Of a stretch of DNA of 10,104 bases, positions 1,462-7,605 are shown piece after piece. The notes beneath the pieces are model-generated. The model saw nothing but the letters and a program-made list of their open reading frames with translations. It ran no database searches and was not told the DNA's origin. Positions within the stretch are counted from its first letter, which is position 1, and each line of letters begins with the position of its first letter. The stretch is taken from assembly GCA_024278035.1 (NCBI GenBank), contig JAJRUA010000066.1:1-10104 (forward strand), in the 5' to 3' direction. This DNA comes from Planctomycetota bacterium. Lineage in GTDB: Bacteria; Planctomycetota; Planctomycetia; Pirellulales; Lacipirellulaceae. The translations under genes were made by a program, and so were the position numbers.

Positions 1462-1558
1462 CTCAGTTATTCTATCGCCCTCTCGATGGGAAAAGAAGAA
1501 GTGAAGAATCCACCGGTGGAGCTGATGGACTTCAGGATACGCCCAGGAGGGGCATAAA

Positions 1559-1621
1559 ATGCCTTACTCCCTTAGGGTGCATGGATTTATAATGCGAAGT
1601 GTCGCGCTTGCCGACAAGTAA
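1559..1621 (+). CDS. Possible 20-codon leader peptide
   Basis: A very short reading frame (MPYSLRVHGFIMRSVALADK, then TAA) begins eight bases after a perfect AGGAGG at 1545-1550, the best Shine-Dalgarno match in the window. It sits upstream of the terminator-like hairpin at 1724-1765, so a leader-peptide role is conceivable, but no amino acid is enriched. It overlaps the TATAAT at 1588-1593, so it could be translated only from a transcript starting further upstream. I do not recognise the peptide and it may be chance. Confidence 0.15.
   Translation: MPYSLRVHGFIMRSVALADK
1588..1593 (+). promoter_or_regulatory. Candidate sigma-70 -10 box
   Basis: A perfect TATAAT lies at 1588-1593 and would place the transcription start near 1600, exactly where the first hairpin of the candidate RNA begins. 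No good -35 box is visible; at an 18-base spacing the hexamer is TTACTC. The site is partly symmetric, and the minus strand reads TATAAA at 1587-1592, so it might also serve the divergent GT4 gene. Confidence 0.4.
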
Positions 1622-1780
1622 ATACGACAGGCGGCGAGAAAGGTTGCGTGATGGCCGAAGACGCATTGCACCAACGATGGCCTAGCGGAGAAATAGGGCA
1701 ATGCTGAGGAGCAACCGTGCGCTGCCCCAAGAGACCGCGACCTTCGGGACGCGGACTTTTGGGGTTTTCGATTGTTTTTT
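1600..1780 (+). ncRNA. Candidate structured small RNA or 5' leader
   Basis: This non-coding stretch contains nested complementarity. A 5' hairpin pairs TGTCG 1600-1604 with CGACA 1625-1629, with CTTG 1607-1610 pairing CAAG 1615-1618 inside it. A long rod follows: GGCGGCG 1630-1636 with CGCTGCC 1720-1726, GGTTGC 1642-1647 with GCAACC 1711-1716, GCATTGC 1663-1669 with GCAATGC 1698-1704, and CCTA 1681-1684 with TAGG 1694-1697. A terminator-like hairpin and T-rich tract close it. The TATAAT at 1588-1593 fits a start at 1600, giving about 180 nt. It lacks the sequence signatures I know for SRP RNA, tmRNA and RNase P RNA. The size and the large internal loop loosely recall 6S RNA, without sequence support. 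It may be a free small RNA or a cis-acting leader of the gene at 1811. Structure is by eye only. Confidence 0.4.
1724..1780 (+). terminator. Intrinsic terminator or attenuator upstream of DUF1572 gene
   Basis: Outer arms CCCCAA 1725-1730 and TTGGGG 1759-1764 pair, followed by CCGCG 1735-1739 with CGCGG 1750-1754 and CC with GG around a TTCG loop (1743-1746), a very stable tetraloop. The strand then reads TTTT, CGATTG and TTTTTT up to 1780. The orientation is plus strand only, because the opposite flank is not T-rich. No plus-strand gene lies upstream, so it must end a small RNA or attenuate the gene starting at 1811. Confidence 0.65.
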
Positions 1781-1810
1781 CCGCTGCCATGCAGGAAGTG
1801 AGATAACAAA

Positions 1811-2599: not shown

Positions 2600-4087
2600 G
2601 TGAACATTCTCTTTGCCACGACTGAAGCCGTTCCTTTCTGCAAGACGGGGGGGCTTGGCGATGTGTGTGGTGCGTTGCCGGTGGCGCTCGAAGCGCTTGG
2701 TGAAAATCCGACCGTGATTTTGCCCGCGTTTCGTGAGGCTCTTGAATCGGGGCAACCGATTGAGCCGACAGGCGTTCGGTTTGAGGTCCCCATTGGTAGC
2801 AAGCGGGTGACGGGCGAGTTCCTGCGGAGCAAGTTGCCGGGTAGCGAGGTGACCGTCTATTTGGTCGAGCAGCATGGCTACTTCAATCGCGATGGCCTCT
2901 ACTTCGACCAGAGCGGAGATTATCGCGACAACTGTGAACGATTTGTTTTTTTTAGTCGGGCCGTTCTGGAAGCAATCGAACGGTTTGATTTACGGACGGA
3001 CGTGCTGCATTGCCACGATTGGCAGACGGGCCTGTTGCCGGTTTATCTCAAGACGCTCTACGCCGACAGCCCGGCCCATCGAGATATCAGCACGCTGTTT
3101 ACGATCCATAACTTGGCGTACCAAGGTGCTTTTTGGCACTGGGATATGGAGCTAACGGGCCTCGGTTGGGACCTGTTCAACTGGCAACAACTGGAGTTCT
3201 ATGGGCAATTGAACTTCATGAAATCGGCGCTCGTGTTTGCCGATACGCTCAGCACGGTTAGCACGAGCTATGCCGAGGAAATTCAGTCGTTGCCGGCAAG
3301 TTGTGGCTTGGAAGGGGTGCTCAGCGGCCGCAGCGAAGACTTGTTTGGTGTTTTGAACGGAGTGGATTACGCCCAGTGGAACCCCAAGACCGACCCCTTG
3401 TTGGCACAAAATTACGACGCGTCCAACTACGTTGCCGGCAAGCGGGCATGCAAACGGGCCCTGCAACAAGAGGTGGGGCTCCCGCTGCGAGAAGAGACGC
3501 CGCTTCTGGCGAGCGTTGGGCGAATTGCTGAGCAGAAAGGTTGGGACCTGATCACGGACATTTTACCACGACTGGCAGAGCAAATGGATGCCCAATGGGT
3601 GTTGCTCGGTACGGGCGATCCACAGCTTGAGCAAGCCCTCCAGCGATTGGCCCATGAGTTCCCTGAGCGAGTGGCCGTCCGAATTGGCTTTTCTAACGAG
3701 TTGGCCCATCGCATCGAGGCGGGGGCCGATATGTTTCTCATGCCAAGCCGTTACGAACCTTGTGGGCTCAACCAGATGTACAGTCTCAAGTACGGTGCGG
3801 TGCCGATCGTGCGTGAAACGGGTGGCTTGGCCGATACGATCACGAACGCCAATGAGACGACCCTCGCCGCGGGCACGGCCAATGGCTATTCGTTTGCGGA
3901 CGTTTCGCCTTATGCTTTATCGATGTCGATCGACCGGGCAGTGAGGGCTTACCACGAGCCGGAAGTCTGGCGACAGATTATAGAGACGGGCATGCGACAA
4001 GATTGGTCATGGGACCGAAGTGCCCGGCGGTACGTGGAACTCTACGAACGGACACGTGCGCAAGCGAGTTCGCCCGCGATGGTGTGA
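2600..4087 (+). CDS. glgA: Glycogen synthase (ADP-glucose type, GT5)
   Basis: Transfers glucose from ADP-glucose to the non-reducing end of alpha-1,4-glucan in the cytoplasm. The 495-residue product is close to the usual ~480. The N-terminal GT5 catalytic domain starts NILFATTEAVPFCKTGGLGD, with the ADP-glucose-binding K15-T-G-G-L19. HDWQTGL begins at H139 and FTIHNLAYQG includes H170. The C-terminal Rossmann domain has R308 and K313 in GRIAEQKG, E386 in EPCGL, and GGLADT from G408. All key residues correspond to those of E. coli GlgA, so the enzyme should be active. GTG 2600 is preferred over ATG 2435 because the conserved N-terminus begins exactly there; AAGAGA at 2583-2588 may be a weak ribosome site. 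It leads the group followed by the GalT-family and GH57 genes. Identification is very secure. Confidence 0.96.
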   Translation: MNILFATTEAVPFCKTGGLGDVCGALPVALEALGENPTVILPAFREALESGQPIEPTGVRFEVPIGSKRVTGEFLRSKLPGSEVTVYLVEQHGYFNRDGLYFDQSGDYRDNCERFVFFSRAVLEAIERFDLRTDVLHCHDWQTGLLPVYLKTLYADSPAHRDISTLFTIHNLAYQGAFWHWDMELTGLGWDLFNWQQLEFYGQLNFMKSALVFADTLSTVSTSYAEEIQSLPASCGLEGVLSGRSEDLFGVLNGVDYAQWNPKTDPLLAQNYDASNYVAGKRACKRALQQEVGLPLREETPLLASVGRIAEQKGWDLITDILPRLAEQMDAQWVLLGTGDPQLEQALQRLAHEFPERVAVRIGFSNELAHRIEAGADMFLMPSRYEPCGLNQMYSLKYGAVPIVRETGGLADTITNANETTLAAGTANGYSFADVSPYALSMSIDRAVRAYHEPEVWRQIIETGMRQDWSWDRSARRYVELYERTRAQASSPAMV

Positions 4088-4111
4088 TGGAGTGATTTTC
4101 TCCGCCATCAC
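4084..4111 (+). other. Hairpin spanning the glgA stop codon
   Basis: GTGATGG 4084-4090 is a perfect inverted copy of CCATCAC 4105-4111 with a 14-base loop, and it includes the glgA TGA at 4085-4087. An alternative inner pairing GGAG 4089-4092 with CTCC 4100-4103 exists. No T-tract follows, so it is more likely a message-stability or translation element than a terminator. Confidence 0.3.
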
Positions 4112-4192
4112 CGGCGAGGAGCGGTGAAACCAACCAGGACAACCGATTTGGACCAACCCACGATTCTCTCGGCGATTGTTGAGTCCGCTGGC

Positions 4193-5134
4193 ATGAGCGA
4201 GTGGCGTGACGATCCGCTGACAGGCCGGCGAGTAAGAATTGCCGAAGCCCGGGCCGAACGCCCCCGCGATTTTACTTCGCCGGCTTCGCCCAAAGCCCCT
4301 GGAGCCCCCGAAGCTGCCTGCCCTTTCTGTGCCGGTAACGAAGCCTCAACGCCACAAGAAATCGACTCGGTTTCCGATGGCAAGGAGGCTTGGCTTTGCC
4401 GTGTCGTGCCGAACCGCTACCCGGCGTTCGCAGGGACCAGCGGCGTGCAGGAAGTCTTCATTGAATCGCCCGAACACAAAAAGAGGTTCGTCGATCTCTC
4501 GCCAGCCGAGGCAACGGCAGCCGTTACCGCTTGGCTACGGCGTCTTGCTTTCTGGCAACAGGAGGGCCGGTTTGATTACGTGGTTCTCTTTAAGAACGAA
4601 GGGGTCGCGGCGGGCGTTTCGCGTAGCCACGTCCACTCGCAATTGGTTGCCCTGCCAGAAACACCGCCGATCGTCCGTGACGAGTGGCTACGATCGACAG
4701 GCAGGCTCCCCGTTCCAAAAGACCGCCTGATCGCTGAGGAGGAGGGGTACACGTTGTTTTGCCCTCCCGCGCCACGCTTTGCTGGAGAGAGCTGGCTTAT
4801 GCCGCCACTTGAGTGGGGATCGATTGCGCCTTTGATAGAATCGCCGGACAAAACGAATCGACTGGCGGTGCTGTTACAACGGCTGATTGCGGCGGTCACA
4901 AGCGTCGCAGGTGAGGAAGCTTACAACCTAATTTTCCAGATCCCCCCTTTGTCCGCCCCAAAAGAGCCGGGCTACCAGTGGCGAATTGAGATTATTCCCC
5001 GCAACGCGATCCACGCCGGTTTTGAGCTAGCAACCGGCTTGGGGATCAATCCCCTTTCCCCTGAAGCGGCTGCTGAACAGTTAAGAGGGGTTTGGGGGAG
5101 AAGCGAGCAAAGGGCAGAGAGGGCAAGCGGCTAG
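4193..5134 (+). CDS. galT: GalT-family nucleotidylyltransferase
   Basis: A HIT-superfamily enzyme of 313 residues that moves a nucleotidyl group between a nucleotide sugar and a sugar 1-phosphate. It is conventionally annotated as UDP-glucose--hexose-1-phosphate uridylyltransferase (Leloir pathway). Expected zinc ligands are C43 and C46 (CPFC), H95 (SPEHKKRF) and H146. The nucleophile is H148 in the SHVHSQ motif, with Q150 conserved. The N-terminus MSEWRDDPLTGRRV matches the family's usual first residues, which is why ATG 4193 is chosen. An in-frame GTG at 4124 adds 23 residues and has GAGG four bases upstream, so it remains possible. The gene lies 105 bases after glgA and 236 before a GH57 gene, with no galK or galE in view. 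A role on ADP- or UDP-glucose in glycogen metabolism is therefore plausible. The family is secure; the precise substrate is not. Confidence 0.88.
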   Translation: MSEWRDDPLTGRRVRIAEARAERPRDFTSPASPKAPGAPEAACPFCAGNEASTPQEIDSVSDGKEAWLCRVVPNRYPAFAGTSGVQEVFIESPEHKKRFVDLSPAEATAAVTAWLRRLAFWQQEGRFDYVVLFKNEGVAAGVSRSHVHSQLVALPETPPIVRDEWLRSTGRLPVPKDRLIAEEEGYTLFCPPAPRFAGESWLMPPLEWGSIAPLIESPDKTNRLAVLLQRLIAAVTSVAGEEAYNLIFQIPPLSAPKEPGYQWRIEIIPRNAIHAGFELATGLGINPLSPEAAAEQLRGVWGRSEQRAERASG

Positions 5135-5141
5135 CTGCCTA

Positions 5142-5187
5142 CTATGCCACGCAAACCGTGGGTTTGCGGGTCCGGTAAGCCGCATAG
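5142..5187 (+). terminator. Two-tier hairpin after galT, no T-tract
   Basis: CGCAAACC 5150-5157 pairs perfectly with GGTTTGCG 5161-5168 around a three-base loop. Outer arms CTATGC 5142-5147 and GCATAG 5182-5187 also match. It starts eight bases after the galT stop. With no T-run after it, it may be a Rho-type or processing element, or a repeat copy, rather than a true terminator. Confidence 0.35.
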
Positions 5188-5370
5188 CCTCGGCCCACTC
5201 TGGCGATCGTCCTGCCTGCGGTATTCGGGCCGGGGGAACTTCATCGGTTGTTTGCTATCCAACACGTGGACGGATCATGCCGATCTCCGGTACGATAACG
5301 GCTTGTTGTGGTTTATGCTGGTGACCCCGCCTCCTCCCGAAAACAAACGTCCCCCCCGAAGCGACTCCCT

Positions 5371-7605
5371 ATGAGCCAACCCTTACGGCTTGTGCTAGTT
5401 CTGCACAACCACCAACCCATCGGCAATTTTGACAACGTATGCGAGCAAGCGTACCAGGACAGCTACTTGCCGTTCCTGGATGTGTTCGAGCGTTTTCACC
5501 TTCCGATTGGCCTGCATACGAGTGGGTCGTTGATGGAGTGGATTGCGCGCTGCCGGCCGGAGTATTTGCATCGTCTTGCGAGGTTAGTGAGTGAGGGGCG
5601 GATCGAAATCCTCGGCGGCCCGTTCTACGAGCCGATCCTAACGATGATTCCATCGCGTGACCGCATCGGCCAAATTGAAAAGTACACCGAGTGGCTTACC
5701 GAACGATTGGGTGCCAAGGTGCGAGGCATGTGGATGCCTGAACGGGTGTGGGAACAATCGCTCACCAGCGACTTGGCCGCGGCGGGAATGGAGTACACGA
5801 TTTTGGACGACTTTCATTTCAAGAACGCCGGGTGGACGGAAGACCAACTGCACGGCTATTACTTGACCGAAGAAGACACGCATTTGCTCTCCGTCTTTCC
5901 TGGAAGCGAGCAATTGCGATACAAGATTCCCTTCGCTGACCCCCACGAAACGATTGAGCACCTTCGTCACGTCGCCTCGGTTCAGCCGGGGGCGATCGTT
6001 GTCTTTGGCGACGATGGTGAGAAGCTGGGCACGTGGCCTGACACGAAAGAACATGTTTACACGAACGGCTGGCTCGTTCGTTTTTTCGAGGCGATCGAAG
6101 CCAACAGCGATTGGCTCAAAGTGACGACCCCCGCCGAGGCGCTCGACTCGGTTGGCCCTCTAGGCAAGGTGTATATCCCCGAAGGAAGCTACCGCGAAAT
6201 GACCGAGTGGGCGATGCCCGCTCTTCAGCAAAATCGTTTCCACGATGCGCAACACACGCTTCAAAATGCCGGTTTTTGGGACACAATCGCCCCGTTCGCC
6301 CGCGGCGGCTACTGGCGCAACTTCAAAGCACGCTACCCAGAGACCAGCGACATGTATGCCCGGATGCAGATGGTCAGCCGACGGCTCGCTACGCTTCAGG
6401 AGAGCGAGCCCCCCATCGATGGCCCTGCCGCGGAGTTGCTCGACGCCGCAACCACCGAGTTGTACCGCGGCCAATGCAACTGTAGCTACTGGCACGGAGC
6501 GTTCGGCGGTGTCTATTTGCCCCACCTTCGCCATGCGGTTTACGAACACTTGATCGCGGCTGACAATTTGCTTGATCGATACGAAGGACGCGATATTTTA
6601 GGCATCCCCCTCTCACTGACCAGTGACGCGCCGCAGGATTGGGTCGATATCGATACGGGTGACTACAACCTTGACGGTCGGCAGGAGGTTCGCCTCGCAT
6701 CGAACCGGCTGATGGCCCTGGTTACACCTTCGACGGGTGGCGAATTGTACGGGTTGGACATCCGGGCGATCTGCCTCAACCTTGGCAGCACCCTCGCTCG
6801 CCGCGAAGAGGCGTACCATCGCAAGGTGCTTGCCGGTCCGAGTTCCGACGGAGATAATGTCGCTAGCATCCACGACCGAGTCGTCTTCAAGCAAGAAGGT
6901 CTCGAACAGCATTTGCAATACGATAGTCGCCAGCGGAACAGCCTGGTCGATCATTTCTACGATTTGGATGTCTCCAAAGAAGCGATCGTCCAGGGCACGG
7001 CGCGCGAAGCGGGCGACTTCGTAGGGGCCCCCTACGAAGCAAAAGTCCGCCGCAAGCCAGAGCGAATGCAGTTGCAGCTTTGCCGGGAGGGTCATATCGA
7101 TGGCTCACCGATCCGTCTTACCAAGGGTGTCACCCTCGAATCGGGGAGTGCAACGCTAGAAATCGCCTATCTGCTAGAGGGATTGCCGACCGACCGACCG
7201 CTCCATTTTTCCACGGAGTTCAATCTGGCTGGCCTACCGGCAGGGGCCGACGATCGCTTTTTCTACTGCGATAACGATGGCGAAAGCCAAGAATCGAGGG
7301 GGGATCTCAACACACAGCTCGATTTGATCGATGTTGAAAATCTCCACTTGGTCGATAATTGGTTGGGGATTGATGTTGGACTGACCATCGATCGTCCCAC
7401 CTCAATTTGGACCTATCCGATTTCGACCGTCAGCCAAAGCGAAGGGGGGTTTGAGTTGGTGAACCAGTCGGTTGTGGTCCAACCGCACTGGATTCTACAA
7501 GCCGACGCCCACGGTCGCTGGAGTGTCACGCTCCGCCTCACCGCTGATACGGCAGTCGCCGAAGCTCGTGCCAAGGAAGCGGCCAACGAAGTGGCTGCTG
7601 TTTGA
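5371..7605 (+). CDS. GH57 alpha-amylase / 4-alpha-glucanotransferase
   Basis: Cytoplasmic enzyme (744 residues, no signal peptide) that cleaves alpha-1,4-glucan and hydrolyses or transfers the released chain; it resembles Thermococcus litoralis 4-alpha-glucanotransferase. The N-terminal GH57 barrel has HNHQP at 12-16, the nucleophile E124 in WMPERVWE, and the acid/base aspartate in FGDDGEKLGTW (D214/D215). Both fall almost at the residue numbers of the T. litoralis enzyme (E123, D214). A helical DUF1925 segment follows (about 285-385), including QCNCSYWHGAFGG at 368-380. From about residue 412 a DUF1926 beta-sandwich runs to the end, containing DYNLDGRQE (431-439), a calcium-loop-like DxNxDGxxE. 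ATG 5371 gives the family start; the frame extends 21 codons further to ATG 5308, which is unlike the family. Family and catalytic competence are clear; amylase versus transferase is not settled by sequence. Confidence 0.93.
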   Translation: MSQPLRLVLVLHNHQPIGNFDNVCEQAYQDSYLPFLDVFERFHLPIGLHTSGSLMEWIARCRPEYLHRLARLVSEGRIEILGGPFYEPILTMIPSRDRIGQIEKYTEWLTERLGAKVRGMWMPERVWEQSLTSDLAAAGMEYTILDDFHFKNAGWTEDQLHGYYLTEEDTHLLSVFPGSEQLRYKIPFADPHETIEHLRHVASVQPGAIVVFGDDGEKLGTWPDTKEHVYTNGWLVRFFEAIEANSDWLKVTTPAEALDSVGPLGKVYIPEGSYREMTEWAMPALQQNRFHDAQHTLQNAGFWDTIAPFARGGYWRNFKARYPETSDMYARMQMVSRRLATLQESEPPIDGPAAELLDAATTELYRGQCNCSYWHGAFGGVYLPHLRHAVYEHLIAADNLLDRYEGRDILGIPLSLTSDAPQDWVDIDTGDYNLDGRQEVRLASNRLMALVTPSTGGELYGLDIRAICLNLGSTLARREEAYHRKVLAGPSSDGDNVASIHDRVVFKQEGLEQHLQYDSRQRNSLVDHFYDLDVSKEAIVQGTAREAGDFVGAPYEAKVRRKPERMQLQLCREGHIDGSPIRLTKGVTLESGSATLEIAYLLEGLPTDRPLHFSTEFNLAGLPAGADDRFFYCDNDGESQESRGDLNTQLDLIDVENLHLVDNWLGIDVGLTIDRPTSIWTYPISTVSQSEGGFELVNQSVVVQPHWILQADAHGRWSVTLRLTADTAVAEARAKEAANEVAAV

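Follow-up and report, generated by a model that had tools for sequence, protein, structure and literature searches.

The spacer upstream of the DUF1572 gene

The spacer between a glycosyltransferase-like gene and a DUF1572 gene raises the question whether this planctomycete encodes a structured RNA here and, if so, where that RNA begins and to what it is related. The window, by which we mean the whole 10,104-nt stretch of DNA analysed, carries the first of these genes upstream of the spacer on the minus strand (1–1461; its Pfam matches lie under their cut-offs) and the second downstream at 1811–2332, followed by glgA, a galT-like gene and a GH57 gene. A preliminary description had proposed a free-standing RNA on the plus strand, starting near 1600 behind a TATAAT box, folding as a hairpin and a long rod, and ending in a terminator. 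It had placed no plus-strand gene upstream, and this appears to hold: the neighbour at 1–1461 is on the minus strand, and the plus-strand open reading frames upstream overlap it. The glgA/galT-like/GH57 cluster (2600–7605) has the same gene order in a Pirellulaceae locus, L003. In a synteny search from GlgA relatives, neither a glycosyltransferase gene nor a DUF1572 gene adjoined glgA in any of 80 loci.

The covariance search against Rfam that the preliminary description had called for gave no window match at or above a gathering cut-off in release 15, including SRP, tmRNA, RNase P and 6S RNA, in agreement with its failure to match the region to SRP, tmRNA or RNase P RNA. Within 1400–1900 there were six sub-threshold matches, with E values of 0.45–3.8, and a tRNA/tmRNA search of the window found none.

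The TATAAT is present at 1588–1593 (plus strand, as are all window features below), and we judge it a chance match outside the element described in the following sections. The hexamer occurs three times in the window, where 0.88 are expected, and 13 of 200 shuffled sequences contain at least three. The start near 1600 that had been deduced from it is not borne out: a promoter scan of 1450–1850 found none with a matching −35 box, the TATAAT lies upstream of 1602, where the match to relatives begins, and the promoter position in those relatives corresponds to about 1644–1672.

Folding gave a mixed picture. The proposed hairpin at 1600–1629 (z −1.19; 67 of 500 shuffles as good) and rod at 1630–1726 (z −1.48; 44 of 500) are not clearly beyond chance. 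The hairpin with the TTCG loop is real. The segment 1722–1767 folds at −28.0 kcal/mol with a z of −5.75, and none of 500 shuffles is as stable; the UUCG-capped hairpin itself spans 1724–1765 and occupies the position of a second hairpin that we identified by eye in relatives. The whole of 1600–1780 reaches a z of −1.95 (equalled or bettered by 9 of 200 shuffles), an excess that is probably due mainly to this terminal hairpin. The hairpin is a possible terminator: the T-rich tail that had been reported exists, but a terminator scan of 1450–1850 made no call.

A covarying RNA family absent from Rfam

A BLAST search of window 1500–1810 against 396 genomes of one order, the planctomycete genomes having been reached through GlgA relatives, gave nine matches with E ≤ 0.01. 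Six of the nine lie outside the core defined below and were taken as chance; L093, which we read as overlapping a coding sequence, was also set aside. L089 aligns at window 1685–1730 and L090 at 1693–1725. A pattern derived from these two was present in 24 of the 396 genomes when at most two mismatches were tolerated, and a reversed control gave none among the matches listed. One genome has ten places with an identical 24-nt match and another has three. One pattern match, L099, was read as coding and set aside. Three sequences (L117, L118 and L120) were reassigned to a second class, class B, and identical copies were removed. The class A alignment comprised 21 sequences. The window was left out, and the alignment is the basis of covariance model R1.

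The class A consensus consists of an outer stem, an AGGAUA loop, GGG, C-N-C, the apical hairpin UGCU-GAGG-AGCA, A, CCC, GAGCG and the closing strand of the outer stem. Bases can pair in 87.9% of the cells, and 12 of 15 pairs show two-sided changes. Four of five covariation measures were reached by 0 of 500 shuffles and the fifth by 21 of 500, in a test whose shuffles ignore kinship. When the partner strand is slid by one to three columns, the pairing values fall far lower, and RNAalifold returns a nearly identical structure. All eight pairs of the outer helix, which lies outside the pattern used for collection, show two-sided changes. Helix 3 lies inside that pattern, so its variation is restricted by how the sequences were gathered. 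Among the RNAalifold pairs, G·U cells outnumber A·C cells by 24 to 7, an excess that argues for an RNA of this strand. Ten relatives searched against Rfam gave no match at E ≤ 0.05; in L089 and L090 a single SorX match fell below threshold and outside the core.

To judge from these alignments, class A is a real RNA family, supported by covariation, absent from Rfam and covering window 1676–1734. The preliminary description was therefore close to right in calling the region an undescribed structured RNA, and its interpretation stands as far as a covarying family over 1676–1734 is concerned; its start and its helices, and with them the free-standing RNA from 1600, do not.

Within the order, the top R1 match of a genome has E ≤ 1e-4 in 31 of 296 cases, as counted from the table, and E ≤ 0.1 in 58 of 296. 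We prefer the lower figure because a cut-off of 0.1 per genome admits up to about 30 chance genomes among 296. Across the phylum, 22 of 294 genomes match at E ≤ 1e-3. These tallies are partly circular, the models having been built from genomes of the same order. In 66 control loci without a planctomycete label, 1.04 Mb in all, R1 scored at most 14.9 bits and R2, the class B model, at most 12.6 bits. An R1 match of 11.2 bits upstream of glgA in L003 is weak and was taken as chance.

Class A inside transposable elements

In all seven copies that could be delimited, the class A RNA lies inside an IS3-family element, between the transposase gene and the right inverted repeat. Four of these copies come from the ten in genome G127 and three from G146. 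The elements are 1580–1586 or 1620 bp long and end in imperfect 28-bp inverted repeats (TGTCTTG...CAAGACA), and the RNA core is located about 1377–1408 nt from the left end. A 4-bp direct repeat flanks three of the seven: TGGC in L123, GGCC in L098 and AAAG in L124. Pfam detects rve in the transposases of L127 and L119, and HTH_21 in L119 and, below cut-off, in L127. The two proteins are 29% identical over the aligned part, and the RNA lies behind both. Class A occurs inside intact elements, and its helices covary.

In several copies a −35-like TTGCCT overlaps the final transposase codons; TACAAC or a similar hexamer comes 17 nt later, and then the outer stem. The best combined −10 and −35 score averages 7.07 of 12 in 57 sequences, compared with 5.57 in shuffles, a difference inflated by shared descent.

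Not every class A copy is an IS3 tail. Among 54 hand-picked class A loci (weak, partial and duplicate ones omitted; related copies not independent), the RNA shares its strand with an IS3 transposase gene in 20; 9 have another or a distant transposase, oriented oppositely, and 25 have none detected. These assignments take the best match only, with queries drawn from some of the tallied loci and with distances unfiltered; the transposase of L200, for example, is more than 1 kb away. In genome G266, two loci (L142 28–1678 and L159 28–1678) share a 1652-nt unit at 99.9% within different flanks. It has inverted, subterminal end sequences, CATAACCGCGA...TCGCGGTTATG, and contains an IS110-family transposase gene with the class A RNA on the opposite strand. 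There are also orphan 3' ends, roughly 300 nt long; L161, for example, shares 293 nt with L134, ending near a sequence that resembles an inverted repeat.

A sister class with other transposases

Class B was found from weak matches confined to the hairpin. Its consensus, from 13 sequences, is an outer stem, UGAAACGGAG, an inner stem, the same apical hairpin as in class A, GAGGGAUA and the outer stem. Here 98.1% of cells are paired, 9 of 16 pairs show two-sided changes, and four covariation measures were reached by 0 of 500 shuffles and the fifth by 1 of 500. Again G·U cells exceed A·C cells (14 to 2). With R2, 40 of the 196 genomes searched have a match at E ≤ 0.01. By eye, many copies have a −10-like box before the RNA and a G+C-rich hairpin with a run of T after it. 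A possible action as a CsrA sponge, with GGA in loops, was considered and rejected; the apical loops vary (GAGG, GGGA, GGCG, GCGG).

A hairpin that sits near element ends could also work as DNA, as a transposase or target-site structure. We consider this very improbable. The position and the capacity to form a hairpin fit such a role, but the ratio of 38 G·U to 9 A·C cells over both classes is not expected of a DNA hairpin or of the other strand, and many class B copies are flanked, as read by eye, by −10-like boxes and by hairpins resembling terminators, which likewise speaks for RNA.

In the same tally, subject to the same limits, a transposase lies in opposite orientation at 17 of 30 class B loci (IS21 at 4, ISL3 at 2, IS3 at 5 and IS110 at 6) and in the same orientation at one; 12 have none. 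Pfam identifies IstB_IS21 and rve in L177, DDE_Tnp_ISL3 in L117, and DEDD_Tnp_IS110 in L231, L233, L237 and L142. In six IS21-like elements (L176, L177, L178, L179, L182 and L193), the RNA is on the strand opposite istA, at that gene's 3' end and close to where istB begins. At L231, L233, L237, L235, L230 and L244, its neighbours are IS110-like transposase genes, or pieces of them, that are oriented the other way.

Several other class B loci have features of their own. In G251, L189 and L190 carry a shorter hairpin variant followed by a terminator-like hairpin; the two copies are 1.5 kb apart, beside near-identical open reading frames, and the genome has ten matches, all with the same weak score. 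L229 places the RNA beside an apparent CRISPR array, as we read the repeated peptide motifs in its translation. A Verrucomicrobiota plasmid (Termitidicoccus mucosus, NZ_CP109797.1) gave matches of 27.9 and 15.4 bits; its locus, L246, has two class-B-like hairpins (2711–2734 and 2976–3052) where no gene is listed, the second followed by a G+C-rich hairpin and a T-run. One viral contig, found through the exact hairpin, matches at 42.6 bits. The class A query had no match in plasmids, and the long class B pattern had none in viral contigs.

Short class B copies recur within genomes in different flanks (L247 2255–2574 and L248 2235–2553; L249 and L250; L253–L256), and in L253 inverted repeats of 46 nt lie near the ends. 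Copies with differing flanks match, for example, over 320 nt at 95% in G127, 211 nt at 87% in G031, 283 nt at 78% in G071 and 134 nt at 90% in G030. Of 12 locus pairs within genomes, the IS21 pair L176/L177 in G247 shares 2543 nt, ten share 55–320 nt and one shares nothing; in the G140 pair the shared 174 nt run to the contig end. These recurrent short copies are possibly a MITE-like element that carries the RNA.

This raises the question whether the RNA is in general a small mobile element of its own, hitched onto IS3, IS21, ISL3 and IS110 elements, with the window as a solo copy and not an IS tail. The short shared stretches within differing flanks, the neighbours from four transposon families and the inverted repeats near the ends of three of the seven copies tested (46, 21 and 14 nt) agree with such an origin. 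On the other side, four of the seven lack a long inverted repeat at their ends, and beside the pair that shares nothing, two pairs share only 55 and 77 nt. Class A, moreover, lies within a whole IS3 element in every one of the seven copies examined at both ends, and the window match begins at a probable transposase end. We therefore regard a general origin as a separate mobile element as unlikely.

The window copy is a degenerate class A member

R1, built without the window, matches it at 1676–1734 with 25.3 bits (E 3.2e-6), its sole window match at E ≤ 10; intact copies score up to 81.3 bits, far above this. The best conserved module of both classes, the apical hairpin UGCU-GAGG-AGCA, is at 1702–1713 and, with the following A-CC, extends to 1716; R2 has a match there as well (15.1 bits, E 0.026). 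Around it the core of 1676–1734 has a loop AGAAAUA, a GG/CC stem, a 3' loop GUGCG and an outer stem of roughly GCGG/CUGC only. The long outer stem that closes the AGGAUA/GAGCG internal loop in the family is not retained, and the R1 alignment leaves the outer five pairs unfilled. The core folds no better than shuffled sequences (z +0.73 and +0.56 in two tests); for comparison, the core of L119 has a z of −3.49 and that of L127, less clearly, −1.85. Because the long outer stem is lost and the core folds like shuffles, we describe the window copy as degenerate; it is not an intact class A member.

The sequence upstream of the core carries probable traces of the IS3 arrangement. A DNA profile of IS tails, made from 47 relatives in which the core was flanked by as much as 160 nt on its 5' side and 200 nt on its 3' side, matches window 1602–1731 with an E value of 4.3e-12. 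The first part of that match, 1602–1651, is probably what remains of the last codons of an IS3-type transposase gene, reading ..AAG GTT GCG TGA (K V A stop, the stop at 1649–1651). An in-frame TAA at 1619–1621 interrupts the reading frame, so the gene is not open. Neither the 5' coding part nor the 3' tail, when profiled by itself, matches the window, so the assignment rests on position-anchored scoring. In that analysis, positions −70 to −40 relative to the core obtain a score of 9.48, against a null mean of 1.21 with an sd of 2.42, and none of about 4000 random segments reaches it; the null segments came from the fetched loci, and a few family rows are mis-anchored. The stretch from −40 to −10 shows no excess over random segments (p 0.10). 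Abutting the transposase stop, TTGCGT (1644–1649) occupies the site of the family −35, which is TTGCCT in seven rows. At the site of the −10, 17 nt further on, where relatives have TACAAC, TATACT and the like before their GGAGGA loop, the window has a decayed TGCACC (1667–1672) and no −10 box.

The helices of the proposed rod can be judged against the same relatives. In an alignment of 19 sequences including the window, GGTTGC/GCAACC and GCATTGC/GCAATGC are paired in 52.6% of cells, compared with a shuffled mean of 51.7%, whereas the two inner helices of the family are paired in 96.2%. The preliminary description had named drift of the paired arms in relatives as evidence against its model, and such drift was observed for these helices. 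Their covariation score alone is above that of most shuffles (7 of 500 reach the same value). The window GGTTGC is located at the presumed transposase end with its −35-like box. Of what had been observed, the TATAAT, the UUCG hairpin and the absence from Rfam were confirmed, and the 1600–1629 hairpin and the rod were not.

No transposase gene accompanies the window copy, which is an orphan, and by eye no right terminal repeat is seen in the window. Could the tail have been domesticated as a host RNA gene, transcribed from the TATAAT at 1588 to the hairpin at 1724–1765? Such a gene would account for the TATAAT, for the strong hairpin with its T-rich tail and for a core that remains close to the class A family. 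Neither a promoter nor a terminator was called in 1450–1850, however, and the core and rod folds are not clearly beyond shuffles, leaving domestication distinctly unlikely. Given the tail-profile match, the lost −10 and the shuffle-like core fold, we read the window as a truncated and decayed IS3 tail. It is likely that 1602 to about 1765 represents the orphan 3' end of an IS3-family element, comprising the last transposase codons, the structured RNA and the hairpin. With its −10 and outer stem eroded, this copy is most likely silent. The strong hairpin at 1724–1765 may be an exception and could yet influence transcription upstream of the DUF1572 gene (1811).

Possible role of the RNA

In intact elements, a putative promoter overlapping the transposase stop (TTGCCT, 17 nt, TACAAC) would drive a short RNA toward the right end. 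The predicted RNA would start at the outer stem and fold as a rod with an asymmetric internal loop, AGGAUA/GAGCG, capped by UGCU-GAGG-AGCA. Its most likely task is to tune the transposition of its element, either as a small regulator or by binding a protein. Our best guess is accordingly an element-encoded regulatory RNA; the proximity to transposase genes points toward a role in controlling transposition. With class A behind IS3 transposases on the same strand and other copies in opposite orientation, these are not all simple antisense RNAs.

A broader proposal, which we put forward tentatively, is that the RNA is a hitherto unrecognised selfish module with its own promoter, common to IS3, IS110, IS21 and ISL3 elements and to solo MITE-like elements of Planctomycetota, with relatives on a Verrucomicrobiota plasmid and a viral contig. 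Its place and orientation relative to the transposase would be kept because it controls transposition or is needed for it. This proposal is strengthened by the Pfam confirmation of four transposase families and by the IS110-family unit that carries the RNA inside. The window itself is a relic, of value mainly as a lead to the family; the intact copies, including the ten with an identical 24-nt match in one genome, make the family directly testable.

Relation to known RNAs

Insertion-sequence RNAs serve as regulators or guides, as exemplified by RNA-OUT, omega RNA and bridge RNA. Small RNAs borne by these elements include RNA-OUT of IS10 and art200 and 5'tnpA of IS200, which either lie antisense to the transposase mRNA in its 5' part or arise from that part by processing; omega RNA belongs to TnpB elements. 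Like RNA-OUT, art200 and 5'tnpA, class A is a short structured RNA of an insertion sequence, linked to the transposase gene of that element. Unlike them, it lies on the same strand as the IS3 transposase gene and downstream of it, and the IS3-tail type to which the window belongs has no antisense arrangement of the RNA-OUT kind. With bridge RNA, seekRNA and omega RNA it has in common a structured RNA in the noncoding end of the element, and in G266 class A is found inside an IS110-family element. It differs from them in that its commonest partner is an IS3 (rve) transposase, and in that the RNA of the G266 element is on the strand opposite the transposase. 5'tnpA is treated in PMC12594629, and the bridge RNA or seekRNA of IS110 and IS1111 in PMC11187229.

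Among the literature matches listed, in which subscription journals are thinly covered, no title or opening of an abstract describes a class A or class B RNA. A table in Weinberg et al. (2010; PMC2864571) lists Rhodopirellula-1, without an Rfam number, as a candidate structured RNA of Planctomycetes and Proteobacteria. The likeness is that of a candidate structured RNA in Planctomycetes, and the present family may already have been described under that name.

Small RNAs derived from MITEs (PMC5896051) resemble the present RNA in that a short repeated element can supply an RNA. The present RNA differs from them in its covarying fold, which extends across several element types. If one phylum has such a covarying RNA in several transposon families that are unrelated to each other, it would add a new case to the RNAs of insertion sequences.
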